Source: Micromonospora narathiwatensis (GTDB lineage: Bacteria; Actinomycetota; Actinomycetes; Mycobacteriales; Micromonosporaceae). From it: 64,000 nucleotides of DNA. The position numbers and the translations under genes were made by a program. Shown here one piece after another: positions 39,045-43,503 of the stretch. The notes below the pieces were generated by a model. That model made no database searches. It saw only the letters and a list, made by a program, of their open reading frames with translations, and was not told the DNA's origin. The DNA is taken from contig NZ_LT594324.1 in NCBI RefSeq assembly GCF_900089605.1, positions 4,154,001 through 4,218,000 of the forward strand. The letters are read 5' to 3'. The stretch's first letter is position 1, and every line of letters starts with the position of its first letter.

Positions 39045-40391
39045 TCAGGGGGTGTGGTCGACCACCTCGCCGAGGTTGGCGGCGACCAGCTCGTCGCGGA
39101 TGATCGCCGAGTCGCCCTCGACGACCACGGTGAGCGACTCCGGGTGCAGGTGCGCTCCGGCCGCCGCGGAGACCTGGTCCACGTCGGCGGCGAGCAGCGC
39201 CTCGCGCAGCCGGGCGTGGTAGTCGTCCGGCAGGTCGTGCACCACCAGCGTGGTCAGCGCCGACGCGATCGCCCGCGGCGTCTGCAACTCGACCGAGAGC
39301 TGGCCGGCCCGCCACGAGCGGGCCACCGCCAGCTCGTCCTCGGTCACCCCGGTCAACTGGGTACGCGAGACCTCGCCGACCGCCTCCACCAGGGCCGGCG
39401 CGGTCACCGCGGTCTGCACCCCGGAGCTGATCGCGAACCGGCCGAACCGGCGGGACGAGGCGAAGTCGCCACGGATGCCGTACGTGTAGCCGTGCACCTC
39501 GCGGATCAGGTGGTTGAGCCGGGAGGTGAACGCACCGCCGAGCACCGTGCCGGCGAGCGTCATCGGCACGTGGTCCGGATGGGCGCGGTGCGGGGACGGG
39601 TGCCCGATGCGGAGGGTGGACTGCACCGAGCCGGGACGGTCGACCAGGATGACCCGCCGCCGGTCGGGCAGCGGCACCTCGATCGGGCCGCCCGGCTCCA
39701 CCGCCCCGCCCGCGGTGCCGGCGAACGCCGCCGCGCCGAGCGCGTCGAGGTCGATCCGGTCCAGGTCACCGGCGACGATCAGCGTCCCCGGGCGGATGAA
39801 CCACTCCGAGTGGAAGACGGTCACGTCGTCCACGTCGAGCGCGGCCACGCTCTCCGGATCGCCGTACATCGGGCGGCCCCAGCGGTTGTCCACGCCGAAC
39901 AGCTCGGCGCGCAGCACGGCGTCCGCCCGCGGGCCCGGGTTGGCCCAGTCCATCCGCAGCGCGGTCGCCTCGTCGTCACGGACCCGCAGCACGTCGGCCG
40001 GGTCGAGCTTCGGAGTACGGACGGCCTCGGCGAGCAGCTCGACGGCGGCGTTCAGCCGGTCCACCGGCACCTGCACGCTGACCTGGAACGAGTCCCAGTC
40101 CAGCCCGGTCACCAGCTCGGTGCCGAGCGCCTCGATCGCCAGGGCGTACGCGGTGGCGTCGCGCTGCCCGGTGCCCTCCTCCAGGGCCTTGGCGAGCACC
40201 GCGCCCAGCCCTTCCTTGCCGACCGGCTCCCGGCCGGCGCCCCCGTCGAGGAGCAGCAGCGCGACCGCGAGGTTCTGCCCCGGCAGGTGCGCGGCGACGA
40301 CCTGCCCGCCCGCGACGGCCCGGCGGACCACCTGCGGGAACCGGTACGGGCGGGCGGCGCCCGGCCCGGGACGGGTGGTGATCAGCGTCAT
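39045..40391 (-). CDS. M16 peptidase family, non-catalytic partner subunit
   Basis: 448 aa, pitrilysin fold without the HxxEH zinc site in the N-terminal half (GLGAVLAKALEEGTGQRD stands there). It keeps the R/Y-type motif in the second half, VHGYTYGIRGDFASSRR near residue 330, which in bacterial M16B heterodimers contacts substrate in trans. With the catalytic subunit just upstream it should form a heterodimeric processing peptidase. The ATG overlaps the upstream stop by 4 nt (ATGA). Confidence 0.85.
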   Translation of the reverse strand: MTLITTRPGPGAARPYRFPQVVRRAVAGGQVVAAHLPGQNLAVALLLLDGGAGREPVGKEGLGAVLAKALEEGTGQRDATAYALAIEALGTELVTGLDWDSFQVSVQVPVDRLNAAVELLAEAVRTPKLDPADVLRVRDDEATALRMDWANPGPRADAVLRAELFGVDNRWGRPMYGDPESVAALDVDDVTVFHSEWFIRPGTLIVAGDLDRIDLDALGAAAFAGTAGGAVEPGGPIEVPLPDRRRVILVDRPGSVQSTLRIGHPSPHRAHPDHVPMTLAGTVLGGAFTSRLNHLIREVHGYTYGIRGDFASSRRFGRFAISSGVQTAVTAPALVEAVGEVSRTQLTGVTEDELAVARSWRAGQLSVELQTPRAIASALTTLVVHDLPDDYHARLREALLAADVDQVSAAAGAHLHPESLTVVVEGDSAIIRDELVAANLGEVVDHTP

Positions 40392-41680
40392 GGCTTCTCC
40401 TCGGGCTGGTAGATCAGGGTCACCCGGTCGGCGGCGCCGAGCAGCTCGGCGGCCTGCTCGGCGATCTGCTCGGCGGTGACGGCGAGCCAGGCGGGCAGCC
40501 GCTCGCCGGCCTTCGCCGGGTCACCGAACTGGGTGGCGTACCGGCCGAGCGTGTCGGCCCGGCCGTCCACCGTGGACATCTGCCGCCACCACAGGGTGCT
40601 CAGCAGCGCCTTGGCGCGGTCCAGCTCGGCGGCGGTCACCGGCACGGTGGTCAGCTCGTCGACCACCTCGGCCAGCCCGTCGCGCAGCCGCTCGGCGGTC
40701 ACCCCGGGGCGAGCCGTGACGGTGGCGATCAGCGGGGCGGGGCCGTGCGCCAGGTCCACCCCGTACGCCCCGACCAGGTCCGGCTGGGCGATCCGCTCCC
40801 CGTCGGCGAGGCGCTGGTAGAGCCGGCTGCCCCGGCCGCTGCCCAGGACGGTGGCGAGCACGGTGGTCACGTCGTACCCGGGGGTGCCGAACCGGTGGGT
40901 GCGGTGCGCGACGTACACCCGGGGGGCGGGCACGTCGGCGGTGACCGTCTCCACCGCCGGCCGCCCGGTCGCCGGAACCGTCCGCCCGTCCGGCGCGGCG
41001 GGGATGTCGGCGCGCGGGGGGACGCCGCCGAAGTACTTGTCGGCCAGCGCGAACACCTCGGCGGCGGTGGTGTCGCCGACCACGGTGAGCACCGCGTTGT
41101 TCGGCGCGTAGTACGTCTCGTGGAACGCCTGGAAGGTGGGCAGGCCGGCGGCGTTCAGGTCGGCCATCGACCCGATCGTCGCGTGGTGGTACGGGTGGCC
41201 CGGCGGGTAGAGCAGCGGCAGCAGCCGCAGCCAGGCGTCGCCGTACGGGACGTTCTCGTACCGCTGGCGGCGCTCGTTCTTGACCACGTCCCGCTGGTTG
41301 TCCAGCGTCTGCTGGGTCAGCGCCGGCACCAGGCCGCCCATCCGGTCGGCCTCCAGCCAGAGCGCCAGCTCCAGGTGTTCGGCCGGGACGGTCTCGAAGT
41401 AGTTGGTCCGGTCCGGGTTGGTGGTGGCGTTCAGCGATCCGCCGGATCCCTGGATGAACCGCATGTGCTCGGTCTTCGCCACGTTCACCGAGCCCTCGAA
41501 CATGAGGTGCTCGAAGAGGTGGGCGAAACCGGTCTGTCCCTCCGGTTCGTGCCGGGAGCCCACGTCGTACCAGAGGTTGACGGCGACGGCCGGGGCGGTA
41601 CGGTCCTCGCTCACCACCACGCGTAGGCCGTTGTCAAGTCGGGTCGTCTCGATGGGCCAGGGGTAACCGCTGTCGGGCAT
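40388..41680 (-). CDS. M16 zinc peptidase, catalytic subunit
   Basis: 430 aa. The inverted zinc motif is intact in GFAHLFEHLMFEGS near residue 52 (HxxEH) with the third ligand region ERRQRYENVPYGD about 75 residues on. No signal peptide, so the enzyme acts in the cytosol or is exported by another route. First gene of the two-gene M16 operon. Orthologous pairs in actinobacteria are usually called zinc protease or processing peptidase; the natural substrate is not known. Confidence 0.92.
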   Translation of the reverse strand: MPDSGYPWPIETTRLDNGLRVVVSEDRTAPAVAVNLWYDVGSRHEPEGQTGFAHLFEHLMFEGSVNVAKTEHMRFIQGSGGSLNATTNPDRTNYFETVPAEHLELALWLEADRMGGLVPALTQQTLDNQRDVVKNERRQRYENVPYGDAWLRLLPLLYPPGHPYHHATIGSMADLNAAGLPTFQAFHETYYAPNNAVLTVVGDTTAAEVFALADKYFGGVPPRADIPAAPDGRTVPATGRPAVETVTADVPAPRVYVAHRTHRFGTPGYDVTTVLATVLGSGRGSRLYQRLADGERIAQPDLVGAYGVDLAHGPAPLIATVTARPGVTAERLRDGLAEVVDELTTVPVTAAELDRAKALLSTLWWRQMSTVDGRADTLGRYATQFGDPAKAGERLPAWLAVTAEQIAEQAAELLGAADRVTLIYQPEEKP

Positions 41681-41686
41681 GGCACG

Positions 41687-41692
41687 ACGCTA
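41687..41692 (-). promoter_or_regulatory. -10 box of leaderless M16 operon
   Basis: TAGCGT on the minus strand, 6 nt before ATG 41680. Confidence 0.6.
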
Positions 41693-41767
41693 TCCGATCT
41701 CACGGGCGGAAAGGTGACGAGCGGGGAGCATCCTCGGCCCGTGCCGGGTACGCGCCGCCTTCCCCGC

Positions 41768-41980
41768 TCAGTCCGGCGGTTCGCTCGGGGTCACCGTCTG
41801 ATCCGACGTGCGGTGCTCCAGGGTGGTGTCCTCGGCGACGTCGGTGTCCTCCCGGATGTCCGATTCGGTGAGGATCGCGTCGGCCTGCGCCTCCGGGTCC
41901 TCGCTGCCCGCCGCGACCTCCTCGGGCAGCAGTTGGGCGCGGGACTCGATCCGTTCCTGCTCGCTCTGCTCGTGACTCAT
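41768..41980 (-). CDS. Small acidic hypothetical protein
   Basis: 70 aa from ATG 41980 (MSHEQSEQERIESRAQLLPE). Rich in Glu, Asp and Ser with no hydrophobic core, so probably disordered. GGAG stands 3 nt before the ATG. It is divergent from the aromatic leader peptide. Family not recognised; size and composition resemble the other small acidic protein at 43797. Confidence 0.6.
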   Translation of the reverse strand: MSHEQSEQERIESRAQLLPEEVAAGSEDPEAQADAILTESDIREDTDVAEDTTLEHRTSDQTVTPSEPPD

Positions 41981-42043
41981 GCACTCCGCATACCCCGTGT
42001 ACCGCAGTGCGGAACGGAGCGCGACTTTCCCGGCACGTCGGGG

Positions 42044-42049
42044 TACGCT
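42044..42049 (+). promoter_or_regulatory. -10 box of the leaderless DAHP-synthase leader
   Basis: TACGCT, 7 nt before GTG 42057. A weak -35 (GCGACT, 42021) lies 17 nt upstream of it. Confidence 0.6.
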
Positions 42050-42056
42050 GGCCGGC

Positions 42057-42122
42057 GTGACGCGGTCGTATCGATGGTTTAGGCAGCCGGCTGGAGGAGC
42101 CGGTGACCTCGCCATGAGCTGA
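42057..42122 (+). CDS. Aromatic amino acid leader peptide
   Basis: 21 codons from GTG 42057 to TGA 42120-42122. Residues 4-8 read SYRWF, so Tyr, Trp and Phe codons stand almost side by side. The gene is placed directly behind a leaderless-type -10 and before an intrinsic terminator (42146-42172) and the DAHP synthase gene. Inside the frame a CCGGCT / AGCCGG hairpin (42087-42092 with 42098-42103) can form, and the same CCGGCT can instead pair with AGCCGG at 42138-42143, offering alternative structures. Ribosome stalling at scarce charged aromatic tRNAs would decide which forms. Classic attenuation logic; the call is inference from layout. Confidence 0.75.
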   Translation: MTRSYRWFRQPAGGAGDLAMS

Positions 42123-42145
42123 CGTCACTCCTCTTCGAGCCGGCC

Positions 42146-42172
42146 GGGCAGGGATGGTTTCCCTGCCCTTTT
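42146..42172 (+). terminator. Attenuator: intrinsic terminator before the DAHP synthase gene
   Basis: GGGCAGGG and CCCTGCCC pair perfectly over a 7-nt loop and are followed by TTTT (42169-42172), rare in this GC-rich genome. It is upstream of, not after, the aro gene and lies 24 nt after the leader stop codon, so it should act as a regulated terminator. Confidence 0.8.
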
Positions 42173-42240
42173 CGCGTACGAGCAGCCGGCTCGACCTCGG
42201 GCGCCGGCCCCGAGGCACGGTCGGCGGAAGGAACCCCACC

Positions 42241-43326
42241 GTGACGACCCCGGACGCCCATCGGGTCATCGACCAGCGGATCGACCGTGTCGTGCCGCTG
42301 ACCACTCCGGCCCTGCTGCACCACCATCTGCCGCTGGACGCGGCGCTCGCCGAGGCCGTGGTGGCCGGCCGGCGCGCCGTCGGCCGGGTGCTGGACCGCG
42401 CCGACGACCGGCTGCTGGTCGTGGTCGGCCCGTGCTCGGTGCACGACCCCGCCGCCGCCCTCGAGTACGCGGGCCGGCTGCGCGAAACGGCCGACCGGCT
42501 CGCCGACGACCTGCTGGTGGTGATGCGGGTCTACTTCGAGAAGCCGCGCTCGACGGTGGGCTGGAAGGGCCTGATCAACGACCCGGGGCTGGACGGGTCG
42601 GGCGACGTGAACACCGGCCTGCGGACCGCCCGCGCGCTCCTGCTCGACGTGCTGCGCCTCGGTCTGCCGGTGGGCTGCGAGTTCCTCGACCCGATCACCC
42701 CGCAGTACATCGCCGACACCGTGGCCTGGGGGGCGATCGGCGCCCGGACGGTGGAGAGCCAGGTGCACCGGCAGCTCGCCTCCGGGCTGTCCATGCCGAT
42801 CGGCATGAAGAACCGCCCCGACGGCAGCATCTCCACCGCGGTGGACGCGATCCGGGCGGCCGGCGTGCCCCACGTCTTCCCCGGCATCGACGTCTCCGGC
42901 ACTCCGGCGATCATGCACACCCGGGGCAACGCCGACGGCCACCTGGTGCTGCGCGGCGGGGGCGGCCGGCCGAACTACGACGCCGAGTCGGTGGCCGGAG
43001 CCCTCGACCTGCTGCGTGCCGCCGGCCTGCCCGAGCGCGTGGTCGTCGACGCCAGCCACGCCAACAGCGGTAAGGACCACCGCCGCCAGCCGCTCGTCGC
43101 CGCCGATGTGGCCGCCCAACTGGCCGCCGGCCAGCGCGGCATCGTCGGCATCATGCTGGAGAGCTTCCTCCAGCCCGGCCGCCAGGAACTCGACCCCACC
43201 CGGGAGCTGACGTACGGCATGTCGATCACCGACGGCTGCCTCGGCTGGGACACGACCACCGAGGTCCTCACCGAGCTGGCGCAGTCGGTCCGTACCCGCC
43301 GCGCCAGCCTCCCCGCCTCCGCCTGA
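42241..43326 (+). CDS. aroF: 3-deoxy-7-phosphoheptulonate (DAHP) synthase, class I
   Basis: 361 aa from GTG 42241, with GGAAGGA upstream. First step of the shikimate pathway, joining phosphoenolpyruvate and erythrose 4-phosphate. Motifs of the AroFGH type are LVVVGPCSVHDPAAALEYA near residue 61, VYFEKPRSTVGWKGLINDP near residue 95, IGARTVESQVHRQLASGLSM near residue 165, and DASHANSGKD near residue 270. The enzyme type is the one inhibited by single aromatic amino acids. The leader region 42044-42172 suggests control by aromatic amino acid supply at transcription. Confidence 0.94.
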   Translation: MTTPDAHRVIDQRIDRVVPLTTPALLHHHLPLDAALAEAVVAGRRAVGRVLDRADDRLLVVVGPCSVHDPAAALEYAGRLRETADRLADDLLVVMRVYFEKPRSTVGWKGLINDPGLDGSGDVNTGLRTARALLLDVLRLGLPVGCEFLDPITPQYIADTVAWGAIGARTVESQVHRQLASGLSMPIGMKNRPDGSISTAVDAIRAAGVPHVFPGIDVSGTPAIMHTRGNADGHLVLRGGGGRPNYDAESVAGALDLLRAAGLPERVVVDASHANSGKDHRRQPLVAADVAAQLAAGQRGIVGIMLESFLQPGRQELDPTRELTYGMSITDGCLGWDTTTEVLTELAQSVRTRRASLPASA

Positions 43327-43354
43327 ACCCGATTCCCGGCCCACCGGACGAGAC

Positions 43355-43386
43355 AGCGCCGCCCCGGCCCCGGCCAGGGCGGCGCT
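43355..43386 (+). terminator. Hairpin terminator of the DAHP synthase gene
   Basis: 10-bp perfect arms (AGCGCCGCCC / GGGCGGCGCT) with a 12-nt loop, 28 nt after the stop codon. Confidence 0.75.
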
Positions 43387-43497
43387 GGACGTCGCTGTGC
43401 GGGTCGCCGGCTGGCCCTCCCGCCAGCGGCCATGGGCGGACGCGCCGGCACGCCGCCCACGGCGAGGGCGGCGACGTTTGACCGATTCGGGCCCGGG

Positions 43498-43503
43498 TAG
43501 CTG
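43498..43503 (+). promoter_or_regulatory. Possible -10 box of a leaderless small gene
   Basis: TAGCTG, one base off the TANNNT pattern, 6 nt before GTG 43510. Confidence 0.4.

Follow-up and report, generated by a model that had tools for sequence, protein, structure and literature searches.

The trp and pheA attenuators of E. coli combine control codons with a terminator and an antiterminator that overlaps it. An attenuator of aroR-aroF in C. glutamicum was reportedly described by Neshat et al. in 2014. Like the leader presented here, aroR-aroF places aromatic codons before an actinobacterial DAHP synthase (DAHPS) gene and is a proposed case of ribosome-mediated attenuation, but its control residues are F-Y-F without the Trp of the Micromonospora leader, and the two are likened by leader and gene, not by RNA. 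The FYF leader of C. glutamicum aroF is given by Mentz et al. (2013; PMC4046766), and a passage of a review has the aroF operon responding to Phe and not to Tyr limitation (PMC11802643). The Acholeplasma aroF uORFC-13-1 motif similarly sets a uORF beside a terminator before aroF but differs in that it includes a ribosome binding site and one or more Phe codons and, in the section describing it, is confined to Acholeplasma and environmental sequences (PMC8632094). Attenuators before a DAHP synthase gene are thus already published (C. glutamicum aroR-aroF; Acholeplasma aroF uORF). By analogy of architecture, the three-hairpin ilvBNC attenuator of C. glutamicum appears to be the nearest precedent for the actinobacterial DAHPS form, although its codons and genes are branched-chain ones: it has an adjacent antiterminator and terminator, an anti-antiterminator and a near-leaderless start, with transcription beginning a single nucleotide away from the start codon of the leader and a boundary trinucleotide common to both hairpins, a model which, in the relevant sections, was proposed from mutants mainly tracking terminator stability (PMC11857589). 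Leader peptides of Streptomyces lividans are likewise mostly leaderless (trpL, leuL, ilvL and others), and the eight named in the pertinent part of that report include no DAHPS leader (PMC8079986). A 2005 comparative survey of Actinobacteria, in its part on phenylalanine and tyrosine operons, gave no conserved RNA structures before them (PMC1262725), a gap which the DAHPS leader element fills. No description of a Y-W-F leader before DAHP synthase was found in titles, abstracts and selected passages of the literature, a search in which subscription journals were thinly covered and which leaves absence unproven.

The window (the whole stretch of 64,000 nt of Micromonospora narathiwatensis DNA that was analysed) carries such a leader (Table 1). 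On sequence grounds it is very probably a ribosome-mediated transcription attenuator of the type I DAHP synthase gene, and the element is in all likelihood real, functional and widespread, a variation on attenuation. Three amino acids, along with many natural products, depend on the entry enzyme of aromatic synthesis, and a single leader reading all three end products would explain entry-point control in actinomycetes, antibiotic producers included. The -10 box, the 7-nt gap, the GTG and the 21-codon ORF with SYRWF at residues 4-8, as given by the first-pass annotation, proved exact to the base, and its succession of hairpin, TTTT and a DAHP synthase gene with a ribosome binding site of its own was confirmed by reading and by the TIGR00034 match (467.8 bits; cut-off 173.2). 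That annotation had also noted two alternative partners for the CCGGCT segment; both are present, as AGCCGG copies, but the segment turned out to be part of a longer helix which abuts the terminator and does not take its arm. No PF00793 place other than the DAHPS gene was found in the genome, and the type II enzyme is encoded elsewhere, with no leader seen upstream of its only approximately placed start. For the 117-nt leader the folding energy is -62.3 kcal/mol, compared with -45.1 ± 3.95 for its shuffles (z -4.35; 0/200 as low), and Rfam gave three weak matches in 41000-43500, none above its gathering score.

Table 1. Features of the DAHP synthase leader region (positions in the window).
Feature	Position	Strand	Remarks
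-10 box TACGCT	42044-42049	+	7 nt before leader start codon
Leader ORF MTRSYRWFRQPAGGAGDLAMS, predicted leaderless (RNA 5' end = start codon)	42057-42122	+	GTG at 42057, 21 codons, TGA 42120-42122
Control codons TAT CGA TGG TTT (Tyr5, Arg6, Trp7, Phe8)	42069-42080	+	S-Y-R-W-F = residues 4-8; TAT 42069-42071, TGG 42075-42077, TTT 42078-42080
5' strand of helix P1 (GCCGGCT, GAGGAG, GGTGAC)	42086-42107	+	Starts 8 nt past first base of Phe codon
Candidate anti-antiterminator hairpin CCGGCT/AGCCGG within ORF	42087-42103	+	Putative competitor of P1; CCGGCT 42087-42092, AGCCGG partners 42098-42103 and 42138-42143; a GCCGG/CCGGY pairing appears here in the consensus fold
3' strand of helix P1	42124-42144	+	Ends 1 nt short of terminator
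Intrinsic terminator GGGCAGGGA-TGGTT-TCCCTGCCC-TTTT	42146-42172	+	Terminator-like by hairpin scoring; arms GGGCAGGG 42146-42153 and CCCTGCCC 42161-42168, 7-nt loop; TTTT 42169-42172
GCCGGCTC	42185-42192	+	Complementary to GAGCCGGC 42137-42144 across terminator; holds a further GCCGGC copy downstream of T-run
Shine-Dalgarno-like AAGGA of DAHPS gene	42228-42232	+	Read directly from sequence
Type I (AroFGH) DAHP synthase, putative regulated gene	42241-43326	+	GTG start; NCBIfam TIGR00034 and NF009395 over cut-off

Conservation in relatives, on which the first-pass annotation had staked its reading, was found throughout the genus sample, which comprised 58 loci (best matches plus five more) out of 121 genus genomes searched, most of the others being covered only by the pattern scan given below. 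The Tyr-x-Trp-Phe cluster, with Y, W and F all present, occurs in 58/58 of these loci with TAT, TGG and TTT invariant, and so does the hairpin with its T-run. The aromatic-cluster ORF rule is satisfied by 57/57 genus loci, compared with 6/207 reverse strands, 112/2070 shuffles and 5/157 far-upstream stretches. Scanning 200 family genomes for the DNA pattern TATNNNTGGTTTNNNNNGCCGGC gave 85 places in 84 genomes, all 38 genus genomes among them, and every one of the 85 is located 143-210 nt upstream of a same-strand DAHPS match; the reversed control pattern occurred twice. In the 116 genomes without the exact pattern the leader differs, the type I gene is absent, or neither holds.

Among other genera of the family (57 loci, chosen by hand from 131 matching non-genus genomes, plus two named records), aromatic leaders were detected in 55/57 loci: 49 have at least three aromatics within five residues and six a Y..F cluster with the P/A motif after it, while two (L152 and L184) have none. 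The class sample covered all 55 non-genus genomes with the gene (27 + 20 + 8 loci), of which 37 (13 + 20 + 4) have the leader and 17 do not, L217 being N-masked. All 17 belong to family code f18, where the gene comes without a leader in 17/17 class genomes, a finding that counts against the attenuator. Applied to the 28 later class loci, the same rule yields 24 leaders, of which 23 contain Y, W and F together. Named Actinobacteria have a leader in 13/17 loci (all three aromatics in 12). Outside the Actinobacteria, 28 of the 57 loci scored carry one, a count that may include a few chance ORFs at the above shuffle rate; Y, W and F are all present in 19 of them, for instance MSAKFYFYFFWYLRPLADREG in Burkholderia. 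The locus is therefore not the unusual arrangement that the first-pass annotation had taken it for, with aromatic leaders preceding type I DAHPS at the majority of the actinobacterial loci sampled as well as at these 28/57. Cluster order and spacing vary outside the genus (YRWF, YWRF, WYSWF, YFWF, YPYF and others) and the aromatic codons persist, while the leader frame past PA differs between species (...PAGGAGDLAMS compared with ...PARQPVTSS), as is expected where only control codons and RNA matter. L014 was left out, its upstream sequence being too short, L007 shows YWRF by eye in a longer frame and is uncounted, and L001-L003 may duplicate species of some other genomes sampled.

Several loci without a leader, or with many clustered aromatic residues in it, can be described individually. 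Type I DAHPS genes leaderless by the rule are L192-L195, L197, L200, L202, L203, L205, L206, L209, L211, L214, L271, L273, L275 and L278 (f18), together with L006 and L039; the f18 upstream stretches displayed look Nocardiopsis-like by eye, and L200, L203, L271 and L006 have a -10-like box immediately before the DAHPS gene itself. One genus genome has a second type I DAHPS (L183), which was set aside from the counts, has no leader and is located directly behind another gene. The DAHPS genes of L183 and L278 directly follow a coding region with the near-identical ending GTGMGFTFSAAVL (by eye), in a setting resembling a biosynthetic gene cluster. In non-actinobacterial leaders the cluster may reach eight aromatic residues and more (FYFWYYGF, FYFYFFWY), and the antiterminator is of the textbook overlapping kind; these long clusters occur in L017, L018, L022, L023, L044, L047, L050, L051, L053, L054 and others.

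The control codons are locked to their rare synonyms. Genus leaders use TAT and never TAC (58:0) and TTT and never TTC (58:0), whereas the genus DAHPS genes stand at 0:270 and 0:233 for the same pairs. The four long ORFs of the window have a TAT:TAC ratio of 1:29 and a TTT:TTC ratio of 0:36, and use CGA once. The lock extends to the leaders of other family genera (TAT:TAC 54:1; TTT:TTC 60:5) and of other Actinobacteria (36:2 and 27:6), while non-actinobacterial leaders have none (29:30 and 68:29). The last Phe codon is TTT in 98/98 genus and family loci having the xxPA motif. Since TAT and TTT are decoded by the same tRNA as TAC and TTC, respectively, unlike codons read by isoacceptors, the lock may stem instead from slow wobble decoding. 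The isoacceptor case is treated in the relevant part of a model study, where sensitive attenuation requires a specific choice of synonymous control codons (PMC1183508).

The promoter is positioned with similar constancy. A TANNNT box precedes the leader start by 6-7 nt in 57/58 genus, 49/55 family (three more at 9-10) and 19/26 other actinobacterial loci, compared with 0/58 at a gap of 4-10 before the genus DAHPS start and 58/9421 before other ATG/GTG. Tetramers resembling a Shine-Dalgarno sequence precede the leader start in 0/58 genus and 3/55 family loci and the DAHPS start in 57/58 and 34/55. Based on this spacing and on the scarcity of the tetramer at the leader compared with the DAHPS start, the peptide is predicted to be leaderless, and the same suggestion of the first-pass annotation gains support from the conserved -10 spacing.

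Hairpins scoring as terminator-like, at a cut-off of our own choice, were detected in 58/58 genus, 52/55 family, 13/13 class, 6/13 named actinobacterial and 24/28 non-actinobacterial leaders, compared with 5/290, 1/275, 0/65, 0/65 and 2/140 of their respective shuffles. A GAGCCGG..CCGGCTC hairpin with no clear T-run directly after it takes the terminator's place in 15/15 picked leaders (L008, L011-L013, L015, L016, L019, L026, L167, L171, L172, L221, L222, L224 and L234), which are of Rhodococcus, Nocardia and Amycolatopsis type plus some Micromonosporaceae; L019 nonetheless scored as terminator-like. Genus and family loci have CCGGCTC downstream of the terminator in 85/94.

Upstream of the terminator, the ORF segment past the control codons pairs with the stretch adjoining the terminator in a long helix of ~20 bp, here called P1. 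Its genus median is -37.0 kcal/mol (z -4.79), and it beats all 60 shuffles in 56/58 genus loci and its shuffles in 45/52 family, 13/13 class, 4/6 named actinobacterial and 0/24 non-actinobacterial loci. It lies 0-1 nt from the terminator in 55/55 genus loci folding both (of 58), 41/49 family loci (of 52) and 12/13 class loci, and a short adjacent helix (median 8 bp) is also present in 18/24 non-actinobacterial folds. P1 is supported by covariation across clades. Over 28 classes its strands fit their cognate partners better than permuted ones (0/5000 permutations as low), even though the own partner is preferred over every other in just 6/28 classes, and in 31 leaders of APGG type 10/23 pairs of P1 and terminator have changed on both sides (two in P1, eight in the terminator), with 0/500 shuffles reaching any of five measures. 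The covariation is weak in the family alignment of 64 sequences, where outer P1 pairs hardly vary and both-side changes are matched by 238/500 shuffles, while paired cells and covariation score are matched by 0/500. Where W comes after F in a leader (FGW, FEW), the final control codon is possibly misplaced in these P1 analyses. Consensus folding of alignment A1 yielded little, with the terminator misaligned, and per-sequence tests were used in its place.

The dependence of P1 on ribosome position was computed with the ribosome edge set 12 nt beyond the first base of the A-site codon. In the genus P1 has a median length of 20 bp for a ribosome on the first control codon, is reduced to 15 bp for one on the last and falls to 0 when the stop is reached, so that P1 is present when the ribosome is stalled, which by the usual logic should favour read-through. 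We infer the following sequence of events. Transcription would begin at or beside the GTG and the ribosome would enter at the RNA 5' end. Under Tyr, Trp or Phe shortage it would slow on the rare-codon cluster TAT-CGA-TGG-TTT, leaving the ORF segment past codon 9 free to form P1 with the stretch before the terminator. P1 standing against the terminator base would then prevent closure and allow read-through, either by occupying boundary bases or by steric hindrance within the exit channel of RNA polymerase, a step to which we give somewhat better than even chances. With amino acids plentiful, the ribosome would cover the 5' strand of P1, the terminator would form and transcription would stop, and the hairpin inside the ORF would act as anti-antiterminator.

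Control codons, terminator and sense of regulation are those of E. coli trp and pheA, but the overlapping antiterminator of those systems is missing from actinobacterial DAHPS leaders (three exceptions in 129), whereas 24/24 non-actinobacterial ones have it and use the terminator arm. Folding of actinobacterial leaders without the terminator 3' arm, for a ribosome placed on the first codon, the last codon or the stop, revealed no classical antiterminator: pairing of the terminator 5' arm with the ORF segment occurred in 0/58 genus, 2/52 family, 0/13 class and 1/6 named actinobacterial loci. The attenuator reading of the first-pass annotation thus holds for the conserved Y-W-F leader and the terminator, but not for a textbook, mutually exclusive antiterminator. 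The energy gained by adding the 3' arm in non-actinobacterial leaders goes from -7.3 kcal/mol at the last codon to -18.0 at the stop, as in a textbook switch, while in the genus it is -17.0 and -16.2 kcal/mol with the ribosome stalled compared with -12.3 at the stop; the genus 5' arm is already paired in 52/58 loci with the ribosome at the stop compared with 20 and 14/58 when stalled. The larger gain and the freer arm in the stalled state have the wrong sign for a simple switch in naked-RNA folding. Boundary bases common to P1 and terminator number 0-2 in 56/58 genus loci (first codon) and 3 in 13/13 class loci (last codon), varying with the group and with the assumed ribosome position. The two forms raise the question of how an antiterminator acts without taking a terminator arm, and we think that the actinobacterial one misses one defining feature of classical attenuators and yet works like one.

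Concerning the amino acids sensed, the attenuator may be real and respond to only one or two of the three, the remaining aromatic codons being passengers or serving for tuning, a serious possibility to which we nevertheless give less than even weight. It fits the C. glutamicum aroR leader (F-Y-F), on which, in a review passage, Phe but not Tyr limitation acts (PMC11802643), as well as the six family loci with Y..F only and the class-sample leaders of YPYF and YRYF type, which lack W. The computed folds also treat the codons unequally: with the ribosome on the Tyr codon P1 is intact and abuts the terminator in 58/58 genus loci, while on Phe8 its abutting end is masked and the abutment persists in 4/58, a masking that also counts against the attenuator model set out above. 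Against a sensor of one or two amino acids, Tyr, Trp and Phe codons are all invariant in 58/58 genus loci, with the lock on rare Tyr and Phe synonyms.

The same folds can be read in the opposite sense, with an intact P1 stacked on the terminator aiding termination until a ribosome stalls on the last codons and opens its base. P1 and terminator are indeed both present in the minimum-energy fold of 55/58 genus loci, and the abutting end is lost once the ribosome stands on the last aromatic codon. On the Tyr codon, however, the ribosome leaves P1 intact, so that Tyr starvation would go unsensed, and the adjacent antiterminator of C. glutamicum ilvBNC is proposed, in the sections concerned, to act oppositely (PMC11857589). 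We regard this pro-termination role as improbable and prefer P1 as the antiterminator.

Less probable still, and very doubtful in our view, is a switch acting mainly on DAHPS translation through the GCCGGC copies between terminator and Shine-Dalgarno sequence. The complementarity of 42185-42192 with 42137-42144 across the terminator holds in 94.9% of cells over 64 sequences, and in the Rhodococcus-, Nocardia- and Amycolatopsis-type leaders the GAGCCGG..CCGGCTC hairpin replaces the usual terminator (15/15 picked). Nevertheless, the pairing across the terminator is without covariation, and was rejected as the switch, and a terminator-like hairpin with T-run is present in 58/58 genus loci. That the segment is simply a conserved RNA or protein-binding element, with translation of the ORF irrelevant, is hardly credible, because even though it is near-invariant as DNA within the genus, wobble bases included, the aromatic codons persist outside the genus despite altered order and spacing and the ORF keeps its start, stop and promoter spacing.

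Returning to the attenuator with P1 as its antiterminator, a broader picture can be drawn, speculative and rather unlikely in its entirety, of an Actinobacteria-wide three-input sensor. Here an abutting P1, with almost no bases in common with the terminator, would exclude it only inside RNA polymerase, and Tyr starvation (full P1) and Phe starvation (partly masked P1) would give graded read-through tuned by the locked, wobble-read TAT and TTT, while Proteobacteria would use the same leader design with a classical overlapping antiterminator.

Turning to other genes, 30 loci upstream of trpE showed no convincing Trp leader but one chance-looking clustered-Trp ORF (L253), the trpE start being taken as the match start, which is uncertain for shorter loci. 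The trpE of the window genome (L244) lies directly behind another coding region, hisI-like by eye, and has no Trp leader. Two adjacent ORFs, one of them with an HLFEH motif, occupy 39045-41680 on the minus strand, divergent from the DAHPS unit, and are presumably M16-family peptidases. Finally, two DAHPS copies of equal score are present in a single family genome, close to the two ends of its contig (G210:C1:45013-46074 and 6736702-6737763), with a leader before each.
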